Of a DNA stretch of 64,000 nucleotides, positions 7,319 to 55,499 are shown in pieces. Under the pieces are notes generated by a model, which worked only from the letters and a program-made list of their open reading frames with translations, did no database searches and was not told where the DNA came from. The stretch is from Gammaproteobacteria bacterium (GTDB taxonomy: Bacteria; Pseudomonadota; Gammaproteobacteria; Acidiferrobacterales; Sulfurifustaceae): positions 17,545 through 81,544 of the forward strand of contig JAOTWF010000002.1 of the NCBI GenBank assembly GCA_029863005.1. The letters are read 5' to 3'. The position numbers and the translations under genes are program-made. The stretch's first letter is position 1; every line of letters starts with the position of its first letter.

Positions 7319-8439
7319 ACAGGCTCCGTGGTATGTTTCTCTCGCCGTTGTTCGAGTGCGGCCTGGAGCTTGTCGAACGGCTCGATGAATTTTTTTACTC
7401 CCTCATCTTCCAGTTGCTGTGCCACGGTTTCAAGGTCAATGCCATGTCTGGCCAAACCGGCGATGGCATCGTCGGACTGTTTGAGTTCCTGCTCCAGACG
7501 CAATGCCGGATTGCCATGCTTGCGGTAGGCATTCAGCGTTTCCGGAGGCAGGGTATTGACCGTATCGGGCCCGATCAGGGGCTCAACGTATTTTACGTCG
7601 CTGTAAGTCGGATCCTTGGTGCCAGTACTGGCCCACAACAGCCGCTGCGACTGTGCGCCTTGCCCGGCGAGCCGGTGCCAGCGCTCCGACTTTTCCATCT
7701 CATTCCAGATCTGGTAGGCACGGCGTGCATATGAAATTGCTGCCGTGCCGCGTAGAACAGAAACAGATTTATCCTTGTTGCCGATCGCATCGAGGCGCTT
7801 GTCCACCAGCACATCGATACGGCTGAGGAAAAAGCTCGCCACCGAGGCCACCGAGGACAATGGTATTCCCGCCTTCACGCGATCTTCCAGACCACTTAGC
7901 CAGACATCCAACACTTCACGATAGCGTGCCAGTCCGAACAACAATGTCACATTGACATTAACGCCCTTGGCGATGAGTTGCCTTACCGCCGGCAGCCCTT
8001 CCCGGGTGCCGGGGACTTTGATCATGATATTGGGCCGGTGCAGCCGTTCCCACAGTCGCACCGCTTCCTTCACGGTCTTGGCCGTGTCGTAGGCCAGGTG
8101 CGGCGAGACCTCGATGCTCACATAGCCATCGCGCCCCTTGCTGCTTTCATATACCGGCAGAAACAGGTCGGCCGCGTGCCCGATGTCTTCAAATACGATA
8201 GTTTCATACATTTCCGTGGCATTCTGGGCGCTGAGCGCCAGCCGGGCGATTTCCGCGTCGTAATCCTCGTGGCCGGTGATGGCCTTTTCAAAAATGGCCG
8301 GATTCGACGTTATGCCCGCCAATCCGTCACGCTTGATCAAGTGTGCCAGTTCTCCGCTTTCGAACATTCCACGCTCAATGTAGTCGAGCCAGATGCTCTG
8401 GCCCAGGGACCTGATGCGCAATAAGGGGTTGGTAGTCAT
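7315..8439 (-). CDS. tal: Transaldolase
   Basis: GLAGITSNPAIFEKAI, PNIMIKVPGTREGLPAVRQLIAKGVNVNVTLLFGLARY; ~370-aa subfamily without a Pgi fusion. Confidence 0.93.
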   Translation of the reverse strand: MTTNPLLRIRSLGQSIWLDYIERGMFESGELAHLIKRDGLAGITSNPAIFEKAITGHEDYDAEIARLALSAQNATEMYETIVFEDIGHAADLFLPVYESSKGRDGYVSIEVSPHLAYDTAKTVKEAVRLWERLHRPNIMIKVPGTREGLPAVRQLIAKGVNVNVTLLFGLARYREVLDVWLSGLEDRVKAGIPLSSVASVASFFLSRIDVLVDKRLDAIGNKDKSVSVLRGTAAISYARRAYQIWNEMEKSERWHRLAGQGAQSQRLLWASTGTKDPTYSDVKYVEPLIGPDTVNTLPPETLNAYRKHGNPALRLEQELKQSDDAIAGLARHGIDLETVAQQLEDEGVKKFIEPFDKLQAALEQRREKHTTEPV

Positions 8440-45199: not shown

Positions 45200-47566
45200 A
45201 TGAAGCGTATTCTTTTCAACGCAACTCATCCCGAGGAGTTGCGCTTGGCTGTGGTCGACGGCCAGAAACTGCTTGATCTCGACATCGAATCCTCCACCTA
45301 CCAGCAGAAAAAGGGAAATATCTACAAGGGCAAGATAACCCGTGTAGAACCCAGTCTGGAAGCCGCTTTCGTGGACTACGGTTCTGAACGTCAGGGTTTT
45401 CTGCCCCTCAAGGAAATCTCCCGCCTCTATTTCCAGGATTACAACGAGCGCACCCCCATGAGCCAGGTGCGCATCAAAGACGTTATCCGGGAAGACCAGG
45501 AATTGATTGTCCAGGTGGACAAGGAAGAGCGCGGCACCAAGGGGGCGGCGCTGACCACCTTTATCAGCCTTGCCGGGCGTTACCTGGTGCTGATGCCGAA
45601 CAACCCCAAAGGCGGCGGGATTTCCCGACGGATTGAGGGCGAGGAACGCGCCGAATTGCGCGAGGCCATGGCACAACTCAAACTTCCCAATGACTACTCT
45701 GTCATTGCCCGTACCGCCGGTATCGGTCGCTCAGCTGAGGAATTGCAGTGGGATCTCGACTACCTGATTCATCTGTGGGAGGCCATCTCCAAGGCCGCAC
45801 AGGACCGTGCTGCGCCCTTCCTGATCTACCAGGAAAGCAATCTGGTGGTGCGCGCCACCCGCGATTACCTCAAGTCAGACATCGGCGACATCATGGTGGA
45901 TAATCCGGAAATCCACGAGCGCATGTCGAAATTCATGCAACAAGTGGCGCCGCAGTTTCTGGACAAACTCAAGCTATACAAGGACGAAACCCCGCTGTTC
46001 TCGCGCTTCCAGATTGAACATCAGATCGAATCGGCATTCTCACGTGAAGTACGCTTGGAATCGGGCGGCGCGGTCGTGTTCGACAAGACCGAGGCGCTGG
46101 TCACCATCGACGTCAACTCCTCGCGCGCTACCAAGGGAGCGGACATCGAAGAGACGGCGTTGAATACGAATCTGGAAGCGGCTGAGGAAGTCGCCCGTCA
46201 GCTGCGGTTGCGTGACCTTGGTGGCCTGATTGTCATCGATTTCATCGACATGACACCCGAGCGCAGCCGTCGCGAAGTGGAAAACCGTCTGTTCGAATCG
46301 CTCAAGATGGACCGTGCCCGTACCCAAGTCGGGCGTATTTCCCGCTTCGGCCTGCTCGAGATGTCGCGCCAACGCCTGCGCCCCTCGCTCGGAGAGTCCT
46401 CCAGCCTGATCTGCCCTCGCTGCCGGGGGACCGGACACATTCGCAGTGTCCAATCCTCCGCCCTCTCGATCCTGCGCATGATCCAGGAAGAGGCCATGAA
46501 GGAAAACACCGCAGCTGTGCATGTCCATTTGCCGATCGATACCGCCACTTTTCTGCTTAACGAAAAACGCATGGAGATCAGTGCGATCGAGTCGCGCATC
46601 GGCACCCCGATCATGGTCATCGCGATGCCGGACATGGAAACACCGCACTATCACATCCGCCGTCTGCGGATCGATGAATACGAGGCCGAGGCCGATGTTC
46701 CCAGTTACGAGATCGACCTTATCGAGGACGATGAAGAAGAAGAAAGAAAACCCACTCCAGCGGCACCAGATACCACGGAAGCCGAAAAACCGGTAATCGG
46801 TCCGCTCACCCACGCCGCGGCCCCGCCGGAGCGCTCGAAGGCCGCGGTCAACGGCGGCGGCCTCATCAAAAAATTCATAACCGGCCTCTTCGGAACAAAA
46901 GAAAAGGAGGAAAAAAAGCCCTCATCGTCGGCACGCCCGGCGCGCCAGCACCCGCCGCACCGGGGGCATGGTGGTGGACGTCCGCCGCATCGGCCTTCTC
47001 ATGGACAACGCCATGAGCGACATGAACGTCATGGACATTCTGACCGACGCCCCGGTGGACAGGAACAGGGTCGCCCACGTCCGCCCCAGACACCACAGGC
47101 GGGGAATTCCTCCGGCCCAAGTCCCGGCAACGAAGCCAATTCGTCTCAGCGCGAGCGCCATGAAGGCACAGGGGGAAGACGCCGTCGTCGGGGCCGTCGT
47201 CGGGGACGTGGTCAGGAAAACCGACCGCCACAAGACCGGCAAAACCCGAACGCACGCCAAGGTGACACGGAATCGAGCAAACCGTCTGAAGGATCGGCGC
47301 GGGAATCACGCCATTCGCGGGAGGAGACGCCTCGTGTGCCGGCAACAACGGCACTTACTGCTCCGGAAACATTAACGAGCCATGAGTCGTACGTCTCTAC
47401 CGTAACCAAAGCACCGGAACAGAATGATGGCTGGCATACTCCCTCCGCCGATGATTCCGTGCAGGAAGCACATGGGCGTCCGGATAAAGTGGAGTCGCAG
47501 CCAAAACCGGAGTTGGTTCAGGTCGAAACCCGGTTTGATAGCGACGACGATAAAGGAAACAAATAA
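45200..47566 (+). CDS. rne: Ribonuclease E
   Basis: MKRILFNATHPEELRLAVVDGQKLLDLDIE, S1 domain, IDVNSSRATKGADIEETALNTNLEAAEEVARQLRLRDLGGLIVIDFIDM, Zn-link CPRCRGTG; Arg/His/Pro-rich C-terminus. Confidence 0.97.
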   Translation: MKRILFNATHPEELRLAVVDGQKLLDLDIESSTYQQKKGNIYKGKITRVEPSLEAAFVDYGSERQGFLPLKEISRLYFQDYNERTPMSQVRIKDVIREDQELIVQVDKEERGTKGAALTTFISLAGRYLVLMPNNPKGGGISRRIEGEERAELREAMAQLKLPNDYSVIARTAGIGRSAEELQWDLDYLIHLWEAISKAAQDRAAPFLIYQESNLVVRATRDYLKSDIGDIMVDNPEIHERMSKFMQQVAPQFLDKLKLYKDETPLFSRFQIEHQIESAFSREVRLESGGAVVFDKTEALVTIDVNSSRATKGADIEETALNTNLEAAEEVARQLRLRDLGGLIVIDFIDMTPERSRREVENRLFESLKMDRARTQVGRISRFGLLEMSRQRLRPSLGESSSLICPRCRGTGHIRSVQSSALSILRMIQEEAMKENTAAVHVHLPIDTATFLLNEKRMEISAIESRIGTPIMVIAMPDMETPHYHIRRLRIDEYEAEADVPSYEIDLIEDDEEEERKPTPAAPDTTEAEKPVIGPLTHAAAPPERSKAAVNGGGLIKKFITGLFGTKEKEEKKPSSSARPARQHPPHRGHGGGRPPHRPSHGQRHERHERHGHSDRRPGGQEQGRPRPPQTPQAGNSSGPSPGNEANSSQRERHEGTGGRRRRRGRRRGRGQENRPPQDRQNPNARQGDTESSKPSEGSARESRHSREETPRVPATTALTAPETLTSHESYVSTVTKAPEQNDGWHTPSADDSVQEAHGRPDKVESQPKPELVQVETRFDSDDDKGNK

Positions 47567-47572
47567 ATTAAT

Positions 47573-47838
47573 AACCCGCCTGTAGCCGCCGGATCTCGAG
47601 ACGAAGGATTTCGGAAACGGCGGCATTGCGCCTAGGGAAGCTTTGCTCAGGGCAGCTTCCTGCGTCCATTGCCGAAGGGGCTGCCAGATCCCGAGACGAA
47701 GGTTTTCGGAGATGGCAGCCGGCGACTCAAGGAATAAGGCTCTGGAAGGGCAGCCCTGCTTCCTCCGTCCGAAGGAGCTTCGCCACGGGACGGAGTCGCG
47801 CGTTCTCCTTGGGCATTGGGCGCTAGGCGGGTTTTTTT
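47573..47838 (+). ncRNA. Structured repeat-containing element in the rne 3' region (candidate 3'UTR-derived RNA or elaborate terminator)
   Basis: Enclosing inverted repeat AACCCGCC-TG-TAGC (47573-47586) / GCTAGGCGGGTT (47822-47833) then seven T (47832-47838); internal hairpins 47585-47624, 47636-47660, 47679-47720 and about 47764-47793. Confidence 0.45.
47592..47712 (+). repeat. Two imperfect copies of a 26-nt core (47592-47617 and 47687-47712)
   Basis: gatcTcgagacgaaggAtttcggaAa versus gatcCcgagacgaaggTtttcggaGa: 23/26 identical, start-to-start 95 nt. Confidence 0.8.
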
Positions 47839-48317
47839 CAGGCCCGCAACCGGGCACGCCGGATATCCTCGAGCAAGCCCTGCGCGGCGTCCTCGATCAT
47901 GTCGAGGACACGATCGAATCCCCCCGCTCCGCCGAAATACGGGTCGGGAACTTCCTGCTCCGCTCGGCTCGTGGCAAATTCCATGAACAGTCGGATGCGG
48001 GACTCCAGACCCGGAGGGCAAATTTCGAGCAGGTTCTCGTAGTTTTCCCGGTCCATGGCCAAAACGTAATCGAATTTCTCAATATCACTGGCCACGGCCC
48101 GGCGCCCCCGCAAACGGCTGATGTCGATCCCGCGACGCGCGCACGCGGCTTGGGCGCGCTCATCCGGCGCTTCGCCGATGTGATAGGCATGAGTGCCCGC
48201 CGAATCAATTTCCATTTGCTGTTCAAGCCTGTGCTCGAGCACCAATTTGCGGAAGACGCCCTCCGCCGTTGGCGAACGGCAGATATTGCCAAGACATACG
48301 AACAATACTTTAACCAT
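47838..48317 (-). CDS. Low molecular weight protein-tyrosine phosphatase
   Basis: KVLFVCLGNICRSPTAEGVFR (CX5R loop), DPYFGGAGGFDRVLDMI; start 48317. Confidence 0.94.
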   Translation of the reverse strand: MVKVLFVCLGNICRSPTAEGVFRKLVLEHRLEQQMEIDSAGTHAYHIGEAPDERAQAACARRGIDISRLRGRRAVASDIEKFDYVLAMDRENYENLLEICPPGLESRIRLFMEFATSRAEQEVPDPYFGGAGGFDRVLDMIEDAAQGLLEDIRRARLRA

Positions 48318-48339
48318 CGATCTGACCAGTTGTTCCCAA

Positions 48340-49083
48340 TTATTGGCTGAAAAATTTCCGCACGCGCTCAAGGTCTTCCGGCGTGTCCACACCGGCTCCG
48401 GGCAGGAGATGTGTTTCATGCACCACAATCCGTTCACCGTGCCACAATACGCGTAACTGTTCGAGCTGTTCGGCTTCCTCCGGCGGACAGGCCGGCCACG
48501 AGGCAAAGCGTCGGACAAATCCGGCACGGTAAGCATAAAGTCCAATATGCCGATAGGCACGAATCACTCCGCCGCCCTTTCCGGCCATGAACTCACGCGG
48601 CCAGGGAATGGCGGCACGACTGAAGTATAAGGCACAACCTTCGGCATCGAGAACGACTTTCACTACGTGAGGATTGGTCAGCGTCTCGCGGTCATTGATG
48701 GCGTGACAGGCCGTTGCCACCTCTGCGTCTTCGTGGGACGCCAACTTGTCCGCCACTTCGCGTATCAGCTTCGGCGGCATCAACGGCTCGTCCCCTTGCA
48801 GGTTCACAACAATTTCATCTGCGCCGATGTCCAGCTTTTCGATGGCCTCGGCTAACCGGTCCGTGCCTGAGCGATGCCTGGCAGAAGTCATAACCGCGTG
48901 CGCACCGAAGCCGTCGGCCGCTTGGCACACACGTTCGTCGTCTGTGGCAATGATGACTTGGCTTGCCCCACTCTTGACGGCGCAATCATAGACCCGCTGA
49001 ATCAACGGCCGACCAGCAACGTCCGCCAGTGGCTTTCCTGGCAGGCGAGTCGAGGCATAACGCGCAGGGATAATAATATGCAT
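48340..49083 (-). CDS. kdsB: 3-deoxy-manno-octulosonate cytidylyltransferase
   Basis: MHIIIPARYASTRLPGKPLADVAGRPLIQRVYDCA, VNLQGDEPLMPPKLI. Confidence 0.96.
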   Translation of the reverse strand: MHIIIPARYASTRLPGKPLADVAGRPLIQRVYDCAVKSGASQVIIATDDERVCQAADGFGAHAVMTSARHRSGTDRLAEAIEKLDIGADEIVVNLQGDEPLMPPKLIREVADKLASHEDAEVATACHAINDRETLTNPHVVKVVLDAEGCALYFSRAAIPWPREFMAGKGGGVIRAYRHIGLYAYRAGFVRRFASWPACPPEEAEQLEQLRVLWHGERIVVHETHLLPGAGVDTPEDLERVRKFFSQ

Positions 49084-52521: not shown

Positions 52522-53142
52522 TCAATCGCTTTCGCGCTCACGCTCGCCTTGGAGCACTTCGACCAGTTTGATGGCCTCAGACTCCATATTGATGATTAGC
52601 TCATTCACGCGCCCGCGGAAATAACGGTAGAACATGACGCTGGGAATAGCGACCGCGATTCCCGCGGCGGTGGTGATCAGTGCGGTGGAAATACCGGCGG
52701 CAACGATGGAAGGATCACCCACACCGTGCTGACCGATGCCGGAAAACATCTGGATCATGCCGATGACGGTCCCGAACAGGCCGAGAAACGGCGAGATAGC
52801 CGCAATGGTGCCGAGGCTACGAAGATAGCGCTCGAGATCCGGCACCACGTGGCGTCCGGTGTTTTCAATGGCCTCCTTGACGATTTCCCGGTCATGATCG
52901 CGGTTGACCAGCCCCGCGGCCAGGATTCGGCCAAGCGGCGAGTTGTCGCGCAGCGCCGCCAGATGTGAGGGCTCGAGCTCGTTGCGCTCCAGCAATTGCA
53001 TGACTTGCGCCAGTAAATCGGGCGGCGTCACGTATTTTTTCTGCAGCGACCAGAAGCGCTCGCCGATGATCGCCAGGGCCGCGACGGAACACAGGATGAT
53101 CGGCCACATGACCCAACCCCCTGCCTTGATGAGCTCGAACAT
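52522..53142 (-). CDS. MotA/TolQ/ExbB proton channel family protein
   Basis: MFELIKAGGWVMWPIILCSVAALAIIGERFWSLQ, ISPFLGLFGTVIGMIQMF. Confidence 0.93.
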   Translation of the reverse strand: MFELIKAGGWVMWPIILCSVAALAIIGERFWSLQKKYVTPPDLLAQVMQLLERNELEPSHLAALRDNSPLGRILAAGLVNRDHDREIVKEAIENTGRHVVPDLERYLRSLGTIAAISPFLGLFGTVIGMIQMFSGIGQHGVGDPSIVAAGISTALITTAAGIAVAIPSVMFYRYFRGRVNELIINMESEAIKLVEVLQGERERESD

Positions 53143-53234
53143 GCCGTGATTCCCGGGTAGAAAAGTGCGGCTAATGTAACAGACACGGAGAAATCCTCAA
53201 AGACAGTCGAGCAAAAACAGAATGTTGCAGCCAG

Positions 53235-55499
53235 TCACGGCGCATACCAATAACGTCGATGCCAGTCCCGGTACGCGGTGACTTCCAATCCGTCGGCGCG
53301 TAGCCGGATTTCCAGTGCGCCGGCGGAGGCAGAATCGTGCAATCGTATCCCGCGCTCGGCATATCGTTGAACGACGTCAGGGTGCGGATGACGGTGACGG
53401 TTGCGGTAACCTATCGGGAACAGAACATGGCGTGGCGCGACCGCCTCAATGAAACCGGACGTGGATGAAGTTTTGCTGCCGTGATGCGGCGCCACCAGGA
53501 TTTCCGCGCGCAGGCGATCTCCCCAGAGTTCCACCAGTCTTTTTTCCGCCCCGGCCTCGATATCGCCCGGAAGGAGGATGCTACCGAAGCGGCTGCGCAC
53601 CAGCAGCACGCACGAGGAATCGTTTTGAGGCCTGGTACGGTCGTCATCCGGGGACAGCATCAGGAAATCCACCCCGTCCCAGCTCCACGACTGCCCGCGC
53701 TGACATTGCTTTGCCCCGGGGAGCGTTTCCGGAACGCTGCTGAGGCGTTTGTCCACGGGCAAGGCGCGCAGCACGGAAAAGGCGCCACCGGTGTGATCGT
53801 TATCACCATGACTGATCAACAGGGCATCGAGGCGACGCACGCCGCTGGCGCGCAAGTACGGTTCCACGACCGCCTTCCCGGTGTCAAAATCCCCAAAACG
53901 CGGTCCCGCATCGAACAATAAGGTGTGCCCCTGGGTGCGAACGACGGCCGCGAGCCCCTGACCGACATCGAGCAAAGTAAACCACACCTCCGCCGGCGCC
54001 GGCCCTGCCGGTCGGATCAGAAACAGCGGCAGCAACCACACACCACCGACCCAGCGCGCGGGCCACCCGCGCGGTGCCAGCATCAATATCACACCCATTC
54101 CACCGCACAACAGTGCCCACATCGGGGGCGCCGGCTGCGACAACTGGCTGAATGACAATTCCGCCAGTCCAGCCAACGCTTGCCACAACAAGTGCAGCAG
54201 CCATGCCGCGAGTTGGAACAAAATGCCGGCAACGTCCGGAACAATCCCCAGCCACAGCGCGCCCAGCAGCGTCAGCGGCACCACCATTAGATCGAATACC
54301 GGCACCGCCAGCATGTTCGCCACCGGCGCCACCAGCGAGACTTGCTGAAACATCGCCAACATCAGCGGCAGCATGCCAAGCGCGATGGCCCACTGGATGT
54401 AACCCAGTCTCCAAACCAGCGGTTTCAATGATCGGTCGCCCTGGATCACGAGCAATATTACGGCGACAGCGGCAAACGATAGCCAGAATCCCACAGCCAT
54501 GATCGCGAGCGGATCGTAAATCAGCACCGCCAGGCCGGCGACGGCCAGCAACTGTGAGGAGGGAAAACGCCGTCGCAGGAGGATGCCGGACATGGCCACG
54601 GCCAGCATGATGAGCGCGCGTTGTGTGGGGACCACGAAACCGGCCAGGGCGGCGTAACAACTGGCGGCCAACAGCGCACAGATCGCACCGAACTGGGGTG
54701 CCGGCAAGCGCAAAACCGTCGATCCCGGCAGCGCCCACAGCCAACGTGCCAGGAAAAACATTACACCGGCGATCAAACTGATGTGCAGACCGGAAATCGC
54801 AACCAGATGCAGGGTGCCGGTGCGTCGCAGCACTTCCCACTGCTCGGTACCAAGACCACGCCCGTCGCCGTTGGCCAGCGCCACAATGATACCGGCGTAG
54901 TCGTTTCCGGGCAGGCGCTCTCGAATGCGCTCGCCCAGGTCCTGGCGCAGGCGATTAATATTGTGCCAGGCGGGCTCCCCGCCGAGACTCATCGGTGCCA
55001 CGTCGTCACGCACGTAACCCTTGGCACGGATCCGGTCCCGAAACAAATGCGCCTCGTAGTCGAAACCGCCGGGGTTCTGGTAACCGTGCGGCCGTTTGAG
55101 GCGGACTTTCAGGCGCCACGTCTCACCGGCGTGCGGTTGAAAACCCGGCGCTCGGCTGGTGAGCAGAATCCGCCGGGGGATCGATACCGGTTTGCCCTCG
55201 TGTTCAGCACGCGTTACTTCAAGCTCGAATCGCTGTCCGTAATCCGCCCGGCGGGGAATATCGTCAATCATCCCCTCGACCACCAGGTCCTGGCCCTCAA
55301 GTTCTCGCGGCAGGTCCTCCTCCAGGATTAACCCGGCGCGGAAACTCATCCATGTCACCCCGGCCACAAAGAACAGCACCATGAACCAGAGGGGACGCCA
55401 AAGCGCCAGCCCCAGGAGCGGCAACAGCAGCAGCGACCACCACAGGGAAGGCAGCGCGGCCAACTGCTGCACCCACAGCACCCCAACGAGGAAGGCCAA
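53235..55499 (-). CDS. comEC: DNA internalization-related competence protein ComEC/Rec2
   Basis: GTLHLVAISGLHISLIAGVMFFLARWLW, metallo-beta-lactamase-like C-term (DVGQGLAAVVRTQGHTLLFDAGPRFGD, LLISHGDNDHTGG). Confidence 0.94.
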   Translation of the reverse strand: MAFLVGVLWVQQLAALPSLWWSLLLLPLLGLALWRPLWFMVLFFVAGVTWMSFRAGLILEEDLPRELEGQDLVVEGMIDDIPRRADYGQRFELEVTRAEHEGKPVSIPRRILLTSRAPGFQPHAGETWRLKVRLKRPHGYQNPGGFDYEAHLFRDRIRAKGYVRDDVAPMSLGGEPAWHNINRLRQDLGERIRERLPGNDYAGIIVALANGDGRGLGTEQWEVLRRTGTLHLVAISGLHISLIAGVMFFLARWLWALPGSTVLRLPAPQFGAICALLAASCYAALAGFVVPTQRALIMLAVAMSGILLRRRFPSSQLLAVAGLAVLIYDPLAIMAVGFWLSFAAVAVILLVIQGDRSLKPLVWRLGYIQWAIALGMLPLMLAMFQQVSLVAPVANMLAVPVFDLMVVPLTLLGALWLGIVPDVAGILFQLAAWLLHLLWQALAGLAELSFSQLSQPAPPMWALLCGGMGVILMLAPRGWPARWVGGVWLLPLFLIRPAGPAPAEVWFTLLDVGQGLAAVVRTQGHTLLFDAGPRFGDFDTGKAVVEPYLRASGVRRLDALLISHGDNDHTGGAFSVLRALPVDKRLSSVPETLPGAKQCQRGQSWSWDGVDFLMLSPDDDRTRPQNDSSCVLLVRSRFGSILLPGDIEAGAEKRLVELWGDRLRAEILVAPHHGSKTSSTSGFIEAVAPRHVLFPIGYRNRHRHPHPDVVQRYAERGIRLHDSASAGALEIRLRADGLEVTAYRDWHRRYWYAP

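Follow-up and report, generated by a model that had tools for sequence, protein, structure and literature searches.

The 3' end of rne in the window (the whole 64,000-nucleotide stretch of DNA analysed here) very probably carries a TA-flanked, MITE-like, non-autonomous mobile DNA element, inserted into the tetraloop of a bidirectional intrinsic terminator shared by rne and the convergent gene for a low-molecular-weight (LMW) protein-tyrosine phosphatase. Insertion is indicated by the dispersed, multicopy family to which the sequence belongs, by the occurrence of the same composite at other loci, by the uninterrupted terminators of congeners and by empty TA sites. The original prediction had treated the interval as a candidate structured repeat RNA of ~265 nt; it proves instead to be a composite of two ~125-bp repeats that are found elsewhere with unrelated flanks. 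A candidate RNA gene is replaced by a documented insertion event, with empty sites in congeners available for comparison.

The host site and its terminator

The upstream host gene, rne (RNase E), extends from 45200 to 47566 on the + strand, and its original identification is upheld by the open reading frame and a Pfam RNase_E_G match (E=1e-100). The convergent LMW-PTP gene lies on the - strand at 47838-48314, its start codon being approximate (Pfam LMWPc, E=2e-41; longest ORF 47838-48560). Between the two genes, the left arm of the terminator, AACCCGCC (47573-47580), is followed by TG, the left two bases of the original 4-nt loop (together 47573-47582, + strand), and then by TAGC at 47583-47586. 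On the right, the partners are GCTA (47822-47825) and GGCGGG (47826-47831), followed by seven T residues (47832-47838), so that the right arm and T-tract of the host terminator occupy 47826-47838 of the + strand, an assignment based on the sequence and on the congeners. All of the pairings originally proposed are present where they had been placed, and the T-run does end at the LMW-PTP stop codon, as had been noted. The window site can therefore be written CCCGCC-TG[TAGC...GCTA]GGCGGG-T7, with an insert of 243 bp in the terminator loop.

The corresponding rne 3' ends of three congeners read CCCGCC-TTCC-GGCGGG (G002), CCCGCC-GCAA-GGCGGG (G004) and CCCGCC-ACCA-GGCGGG (G006), each with a T-rich stretch next and no insert, and the insert is missing at this position in all congeners that have sequence there. 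Because the same stem with a 4-nt loop is present without the insert in these three genomes, the enclosing 9-bp outer helix, as judged by sequence comparison, is part of the host rne/LMW-PTP terminator and not of the insert. This helix had originally been counted as part of the RNA, and scattered copies of the repeats do occur without it, the outcome originally named as one that would speak against the RNA. A terminator scan called the hairpin in the uninterrupted G006 ortholog (L082), a GC-rich hairpin with a short loop and a T-tract; the same scan called no terminator at the rne 3' end of the window, because the loop there holds the insert.

The simplest history of the window site would be a TGTA tetraloop in which TA was doubled on insertion. 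A TGTA loop is kept in none of the relatives compared at the rne 3' end, and TA doubling at this site is therefore inferred from the other copies of the element. The insertion probably split a formerly compact terminator and gave rne a folded 3' UTR: the two arms would have to meet across the 243-nt folded insert, and the rne mRNA would carry a structured 3' UTR of ~260 nt. Termination may have become weaker or slower, with possible read-through antisense to LMW-PTP. Insertion of ERIC elements into 3' UTRs can alter mRNA stability (PMC2229807, PMC10969869).

Composite architecture of the insert

From its sequence, the insert is a composite in which one element, A (~125 bp), is interrupted in one of its hairpin tips by a related element, B (125 bp). 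The 5' part of A, TAGCCGCCGG...TTGCCGAAG, covers 47583-47676 on the + strand and includes the first hairpin (47585-47624), the centre and the first arm of the second hairpin; it was recognized by a match to the A model, R1, at 47609-47677 (43.4 bits) and by 80% identity over A positions 1-96. Element B follows in the tip of the second hairpin of A at 47677-47801, + strand (match to model R2, 130.4 bits, E=6.9e-24), and copies in G001/G002 are 94% identical to it. Its sub-parts on the + strand are X (47679-47686), X'1 (47713-47720), Y1 (47721-47728), X'2 (47748-47755), Y2 (47762-47770) and Y' (47787-47799). The 3' part of A, ...CTTGGGCATTGGGCGCTA, at 47802-47825 of the + strand, supplies the second arm of the second hairpin and the right terminus, and here the R1 match reaches the end of the model. 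The junction TAs lie at 47583-47584 on the left and 47824-47825 on the right, and at 8 other loci the corresponding TA occurs once in the empty site and twice in the filled one.

As A is split by B, the two near-identical cores originally noticed 95 nt apart correspond to the first hairpin of each element, and they were confirmed as a 40-nt direct repeat with 83% identity (47585-47624 and 47680-47719). The further hairpins described at the time are also present, but they make up the distal half of each nested unit, and one of them, GGAAGCT/AGCTTCC, is private to the window copy; other copies have a conserved ...GGCTCATTGCGGCTA at that position. The interval folds strongly on the + strand (-138.2 kcal/mol, z = -4.5, with 0/200 shuffles as good), and the - strand also folds well (z = -2.9). 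As other genomes also carry the unit, the structure goes beyond chance. Some ORFs of the window list overlap the insert.

The A and B repeat family

Both elements are short (<200 bp), dispersed, multicopy and mostly intergenic. Element A measures 122-125 nt, with the consensus TAGCCGCCGGATCCCG(A/T)GGCGCAGCTCTTTCGGAGACGGCGGCAGTAGCGCCCATGGAAACATGGCTCATTGCGGCTAcCTGCGCCCATTGCCGAAAGAGCATTCGCCTCGGGCACTGGGCGCTA (n=24 copies) and ends that read TAGCCGCC... and ...GGGCGCTA. Its plan is TA-GC...GC-TA, two hairpins in inverted orientation flanking a structured centre, and its terminal inverted repeats (TAGC...GCTA) give either strand the form TAGCnnCC..CCCGAGGCG near its end. The models match copies on both strands. 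Element B measures 125-129 nt, starts with GGGGC(T/C)GCC and ends with GGAGTCGCC (n=19 copies); its ends (GG...CC) are unlike those of A, so the two elements need not move by a single mechanism. Almost every copy read has B in the tip of one of the two hairpins of A, and one has it in the tip of another B. Composites of the A(B) type recur in G001, G002, G004, G007 and G015, and those of G001, G004, G007 and G015 occupy unrelated places with unrelated flanks.

Searching the window's own genome with a 279-nt region yielded further loci, and that genome has about 4 in all. The same kind of search of 96 relatives gave strong matches in 8 of the 9 genus members (the window's own genome counted) and in a few others, with only a weak match in G003; G045, a further member of the order, also has a copy. 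The matches came as pieces, covering query positions ~17-110, ~106-235, or both joined. The R1 model found A in 11 of 41 relatives, namely 8/9 genus members, G012, G015 and, weakly, G010, and by our own count from this search there are about 70 loci in these genomes. Class-wide, 2 of 274 genomes match, both of them from the genus. A 22-base pattern matched 22 stretches among GTDB contigs, 21 of which come from gammaproteobacterial MAGs with labels that include Sulfuricaulis, Candidatus Muproteobacteria and Acidithiobacillales. These searches point to a range made up essentially of Sulfuricaulis and a few close relatives, for which the repeats could serve as a lineage marker. The family is apparently undescribed: we found no description of it in the open-access literature, including that on Sulfuricaulis repeats.

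Some copies depart from the common plan. In G008, an A copy on C1 (L156 447-604) has an extra insert of ~34 bp in its centre, GGGCAAGACGAGCGAAGCAGGGCTACATTTTC. In G007, a composite appears to be split by other sequence, AGAAGCTATCTCAAAATC..., at two contig ends (L050 and L055), a layout that suggests insertion into B. An exact match to the pattern of the second-hairpin tip of A also occurs far outside the range of the family, in Rhizobium terrae (L145 491-514).

Insertion sites and the TA rule

The flanks of A copies were joined and the genus was searched for uninterrupted orthologs of the resulting empty sites. Eight A insertions other than the one after rne show a single TA in the empty ortholog and TA...TA in the filled site: the copy on C18 of the window's genome compared with G002 (L168), a G002 copy compared with window positions 53097-53248, and the copies in L045, L052, L063, L073, L074 and L157, the last compared with six genomes. 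Of the remaining sites that have an empty ortholog, about half have diverged at the junction and are uninformative as to TA. The pattern fits duplication of TA on insertion, and the alternative, in which a TA-ended element inserts beside a TA, gives an identical pattern in the sequence. The TA is preceded by C or G in 27 of 30 A sites and followed by C or G in 27 of 30; of 30 copies, 12 have G immediately before TAG and 15 have C. A crude ORF call places 22 of the 30 sites between genes, and at several sites the gene upstream ends on the TAG of the A copy, as rng does in G006. One B copy stands alone (L053), at a GGG/CCC site of which G006 has the uninterrupted form.

In G015, the A copies of L046, L056, L061, L062, L064 and L071 have common flanks, CGGCACCGTAANCGG-TA...TA-CATCCNTGTACCACGG, because A lies there inside another short palindromic repeat, and this host repeat is seen in L046 without A and with a single TA (AAGCGG-TA-CATCC). 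In G005, an A copy on C96 (L149 ~7663-7786) is inserted in a high-copy dispersed repeat of the AATCCTGTnAATCCTG type, for which most congeners have dozens of matches in their genome, and the window's genome and G002 few.

Comparison with known repeats and the mobilising enzyme

The sequence features of the family agree with those of TA-targeted MITEs such as ERIC and Correia, and it may be regarded as a new family within that kind. ERIC, Correia/NEMIS and RUP are short inverted-repeat elements that end in TA (PMC2229807; PMC10969869). The enterobacterial ERIC (IRU, RU-1; 127 bp) resembles A in length, in TA at both ends, in its intergenic position and as an imperfect palindrome with a stably folding transcript, while the present family occurs in a different lineage and at a lower copy number. 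The Correia/NEMIS elements of Neisseria (~107 and ~155 bp) are likewise short TA-ended inverted repeats with a longer version that has an internal insert (PMC2229807); here, however, that insert is B, a palindromic element related to A, and the ends are short, each forming its own hairpin. The pneumococcal BOX, RUP and SPRITE repeats insert into each other, with SPRITE enriched near the 3' ends of convergent genes (PMC3049150), and A and B are similarly short structured repeats nested in one another.

A transposase acting in trans on the element ends at [C/G]TA[C/G] targets would account for the mobility. We found no autonomous relative in the genus genomes searched, though draft assemblies may lack it; the partner enzyme has possibly been lost or lies in missing contigs. 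A transposase of the TA-duplicating IS630/Tc1 type, as proposed for RUP, is a possible though doubtful mobiliser. RUP inserts at TA and provides the precedent through its matching IS630-Spn1 (PMC2229807), and TA is found both at the ends of A and at its empty sites, but no such matching element was found for the present family. The corresponding DDE_3 domain was not found in the genus genomes searched, apart from one 197-aa frame in G008, and with the domain nearly absent from the genus DDE_3/IS630 is not supported as the partner.

Spread in the manner of REP/BIME (REPIN) sequences, by a RAYT (a Y1 HUH transposase) recognising a hairpin and its GTAG foot in single-stranded DNA, appears quite unlikely. 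The two families do share inverted hairpin pairs with a TAG foot and an intergenic position; the composite, clustered layout resembles REP dimers, which can sit inside other palindromes (PMC3733652), and several congeners encode Y1_Tnp proteins of 170-200 aa. However, the present family has TA...TA junctions, its unit is ~125 bp and not 20-40 bp, and it has no fixed GTAG tag, given the near-equal use of G and C before TAG. Moreover, Y1_Tnp is absent from the window's own genome and from G012, both of which carry the element, and is found in G003, which does not; the Y1 loci examined have no element within 1.5 kb. With neither co-occurrence nor flanking copies, Y1_Tnp/RAYT was rejected as the partner.

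Stem covariation and the three-copy feet

The stem covariation originally noted holds across B copies. The outer stems of the first hairpin (X:X'1) and of the last (Y2:Y') covary, with 30 double-changed cells compared with a shuffled mean of 9.6 (0/500 shuffles reaching this value). X' occurs again downstream as X'2 and Y also occurs earlier as Y1, and the long-range pairs X:X'2 and Y1:Y', which together would make a pseudoknot, are paired in 97.5% of cases and covary as well (11 double-changed cells compared with 3.0, 0/500 shuffles). The same long-range pairs hold at 98.3% in A, with three double changes. All these counts come from related copies and represent few events, by eye about five coordinated changes. 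The foot sequence at each end is found again inside the element, and its three copies change in concert. Predicted energies pick no single form: a full foldback is favoured for A and local hairpins for B, and the X:X'2 pairing comes within 2-15 kcal/mol.

These joint changes of the feet most likely result from template-switch copying between inverted repeats in single-stranded DNA, from selection on alternative pairing, or from both. Template switching between inverted repeats is reported to create and maintain such covariation (PMC8794818), and would suffice to explain it here. We consider it unlikely that the interlocked repeats, in which X can pair with X'1 or X'2 and Y' with Y2 or Y1, persist because the element must alternate between a form with local hairpins and a long-range pseudoknot, as single-stranded DNA or RNA; such switching would define a type of structure-recognised mobile element undescribed for ERIC, Correia or REP.

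It is very unlikely that the rne 3' UTR holds a structured RNA, acting in cis or in trans, that selection maintains at the RNA level, even though the element lies right after rne and ahead of a T-tract, folds better on the + strand than on the - strand and has covarying stems. Copies sit after many unrelated genes, and no congener with sequence at the rne 3' end has the insert. The fold plan is identical on both strands and the stem mismatches are balanced overall (GT 28, AC 25), giving no sign of RNA-strand selection, with the exception of the long-range pairs of A alone (GT 15, AC 4); for these reasons, the covariation needs no RNA function. The Rfam scan, originally put forward as a check, gave no match in the interval with the Rfam 15 covariance models, even at E<=5. 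Two alternatives were first offered: the dispersed copies favour the mobile palindromic repeat, and the strand symmetry argues against an RNA structure under selection. The covarying triple foot is a warning that strong covariation of stems in bacterial intergenic DNA can arise from mobile palindromes and template switching, and not from selection on RNA.

Position in the terminator loop

A built-in preference of the element for terminator or hairpin loops is most improbable: the window insertion falls exactly in a tetraloop and B is located in the hairpin tips of A and B, but stem scores around the TA of 30 A sites are not above those of 2605 background TAs (Mann-Whitney p = 0.49), and the top 2% of scores include only the window and one other site. 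Loop targeting was accordingly rejected as a general rule for A, and with no loop preference the position of the window insert in a terminator loop is probably due to chance plus tolerance. An A copy in G006 (L229 1501-1625; C13:204663-204787) lies exactly at the stop codon of rng, the RNase G gene, with the TAG of the element serving as the stop. With rne in the window, two genes of the RNase E/G kind have an insert at their 3' ends, probably by coincidence.
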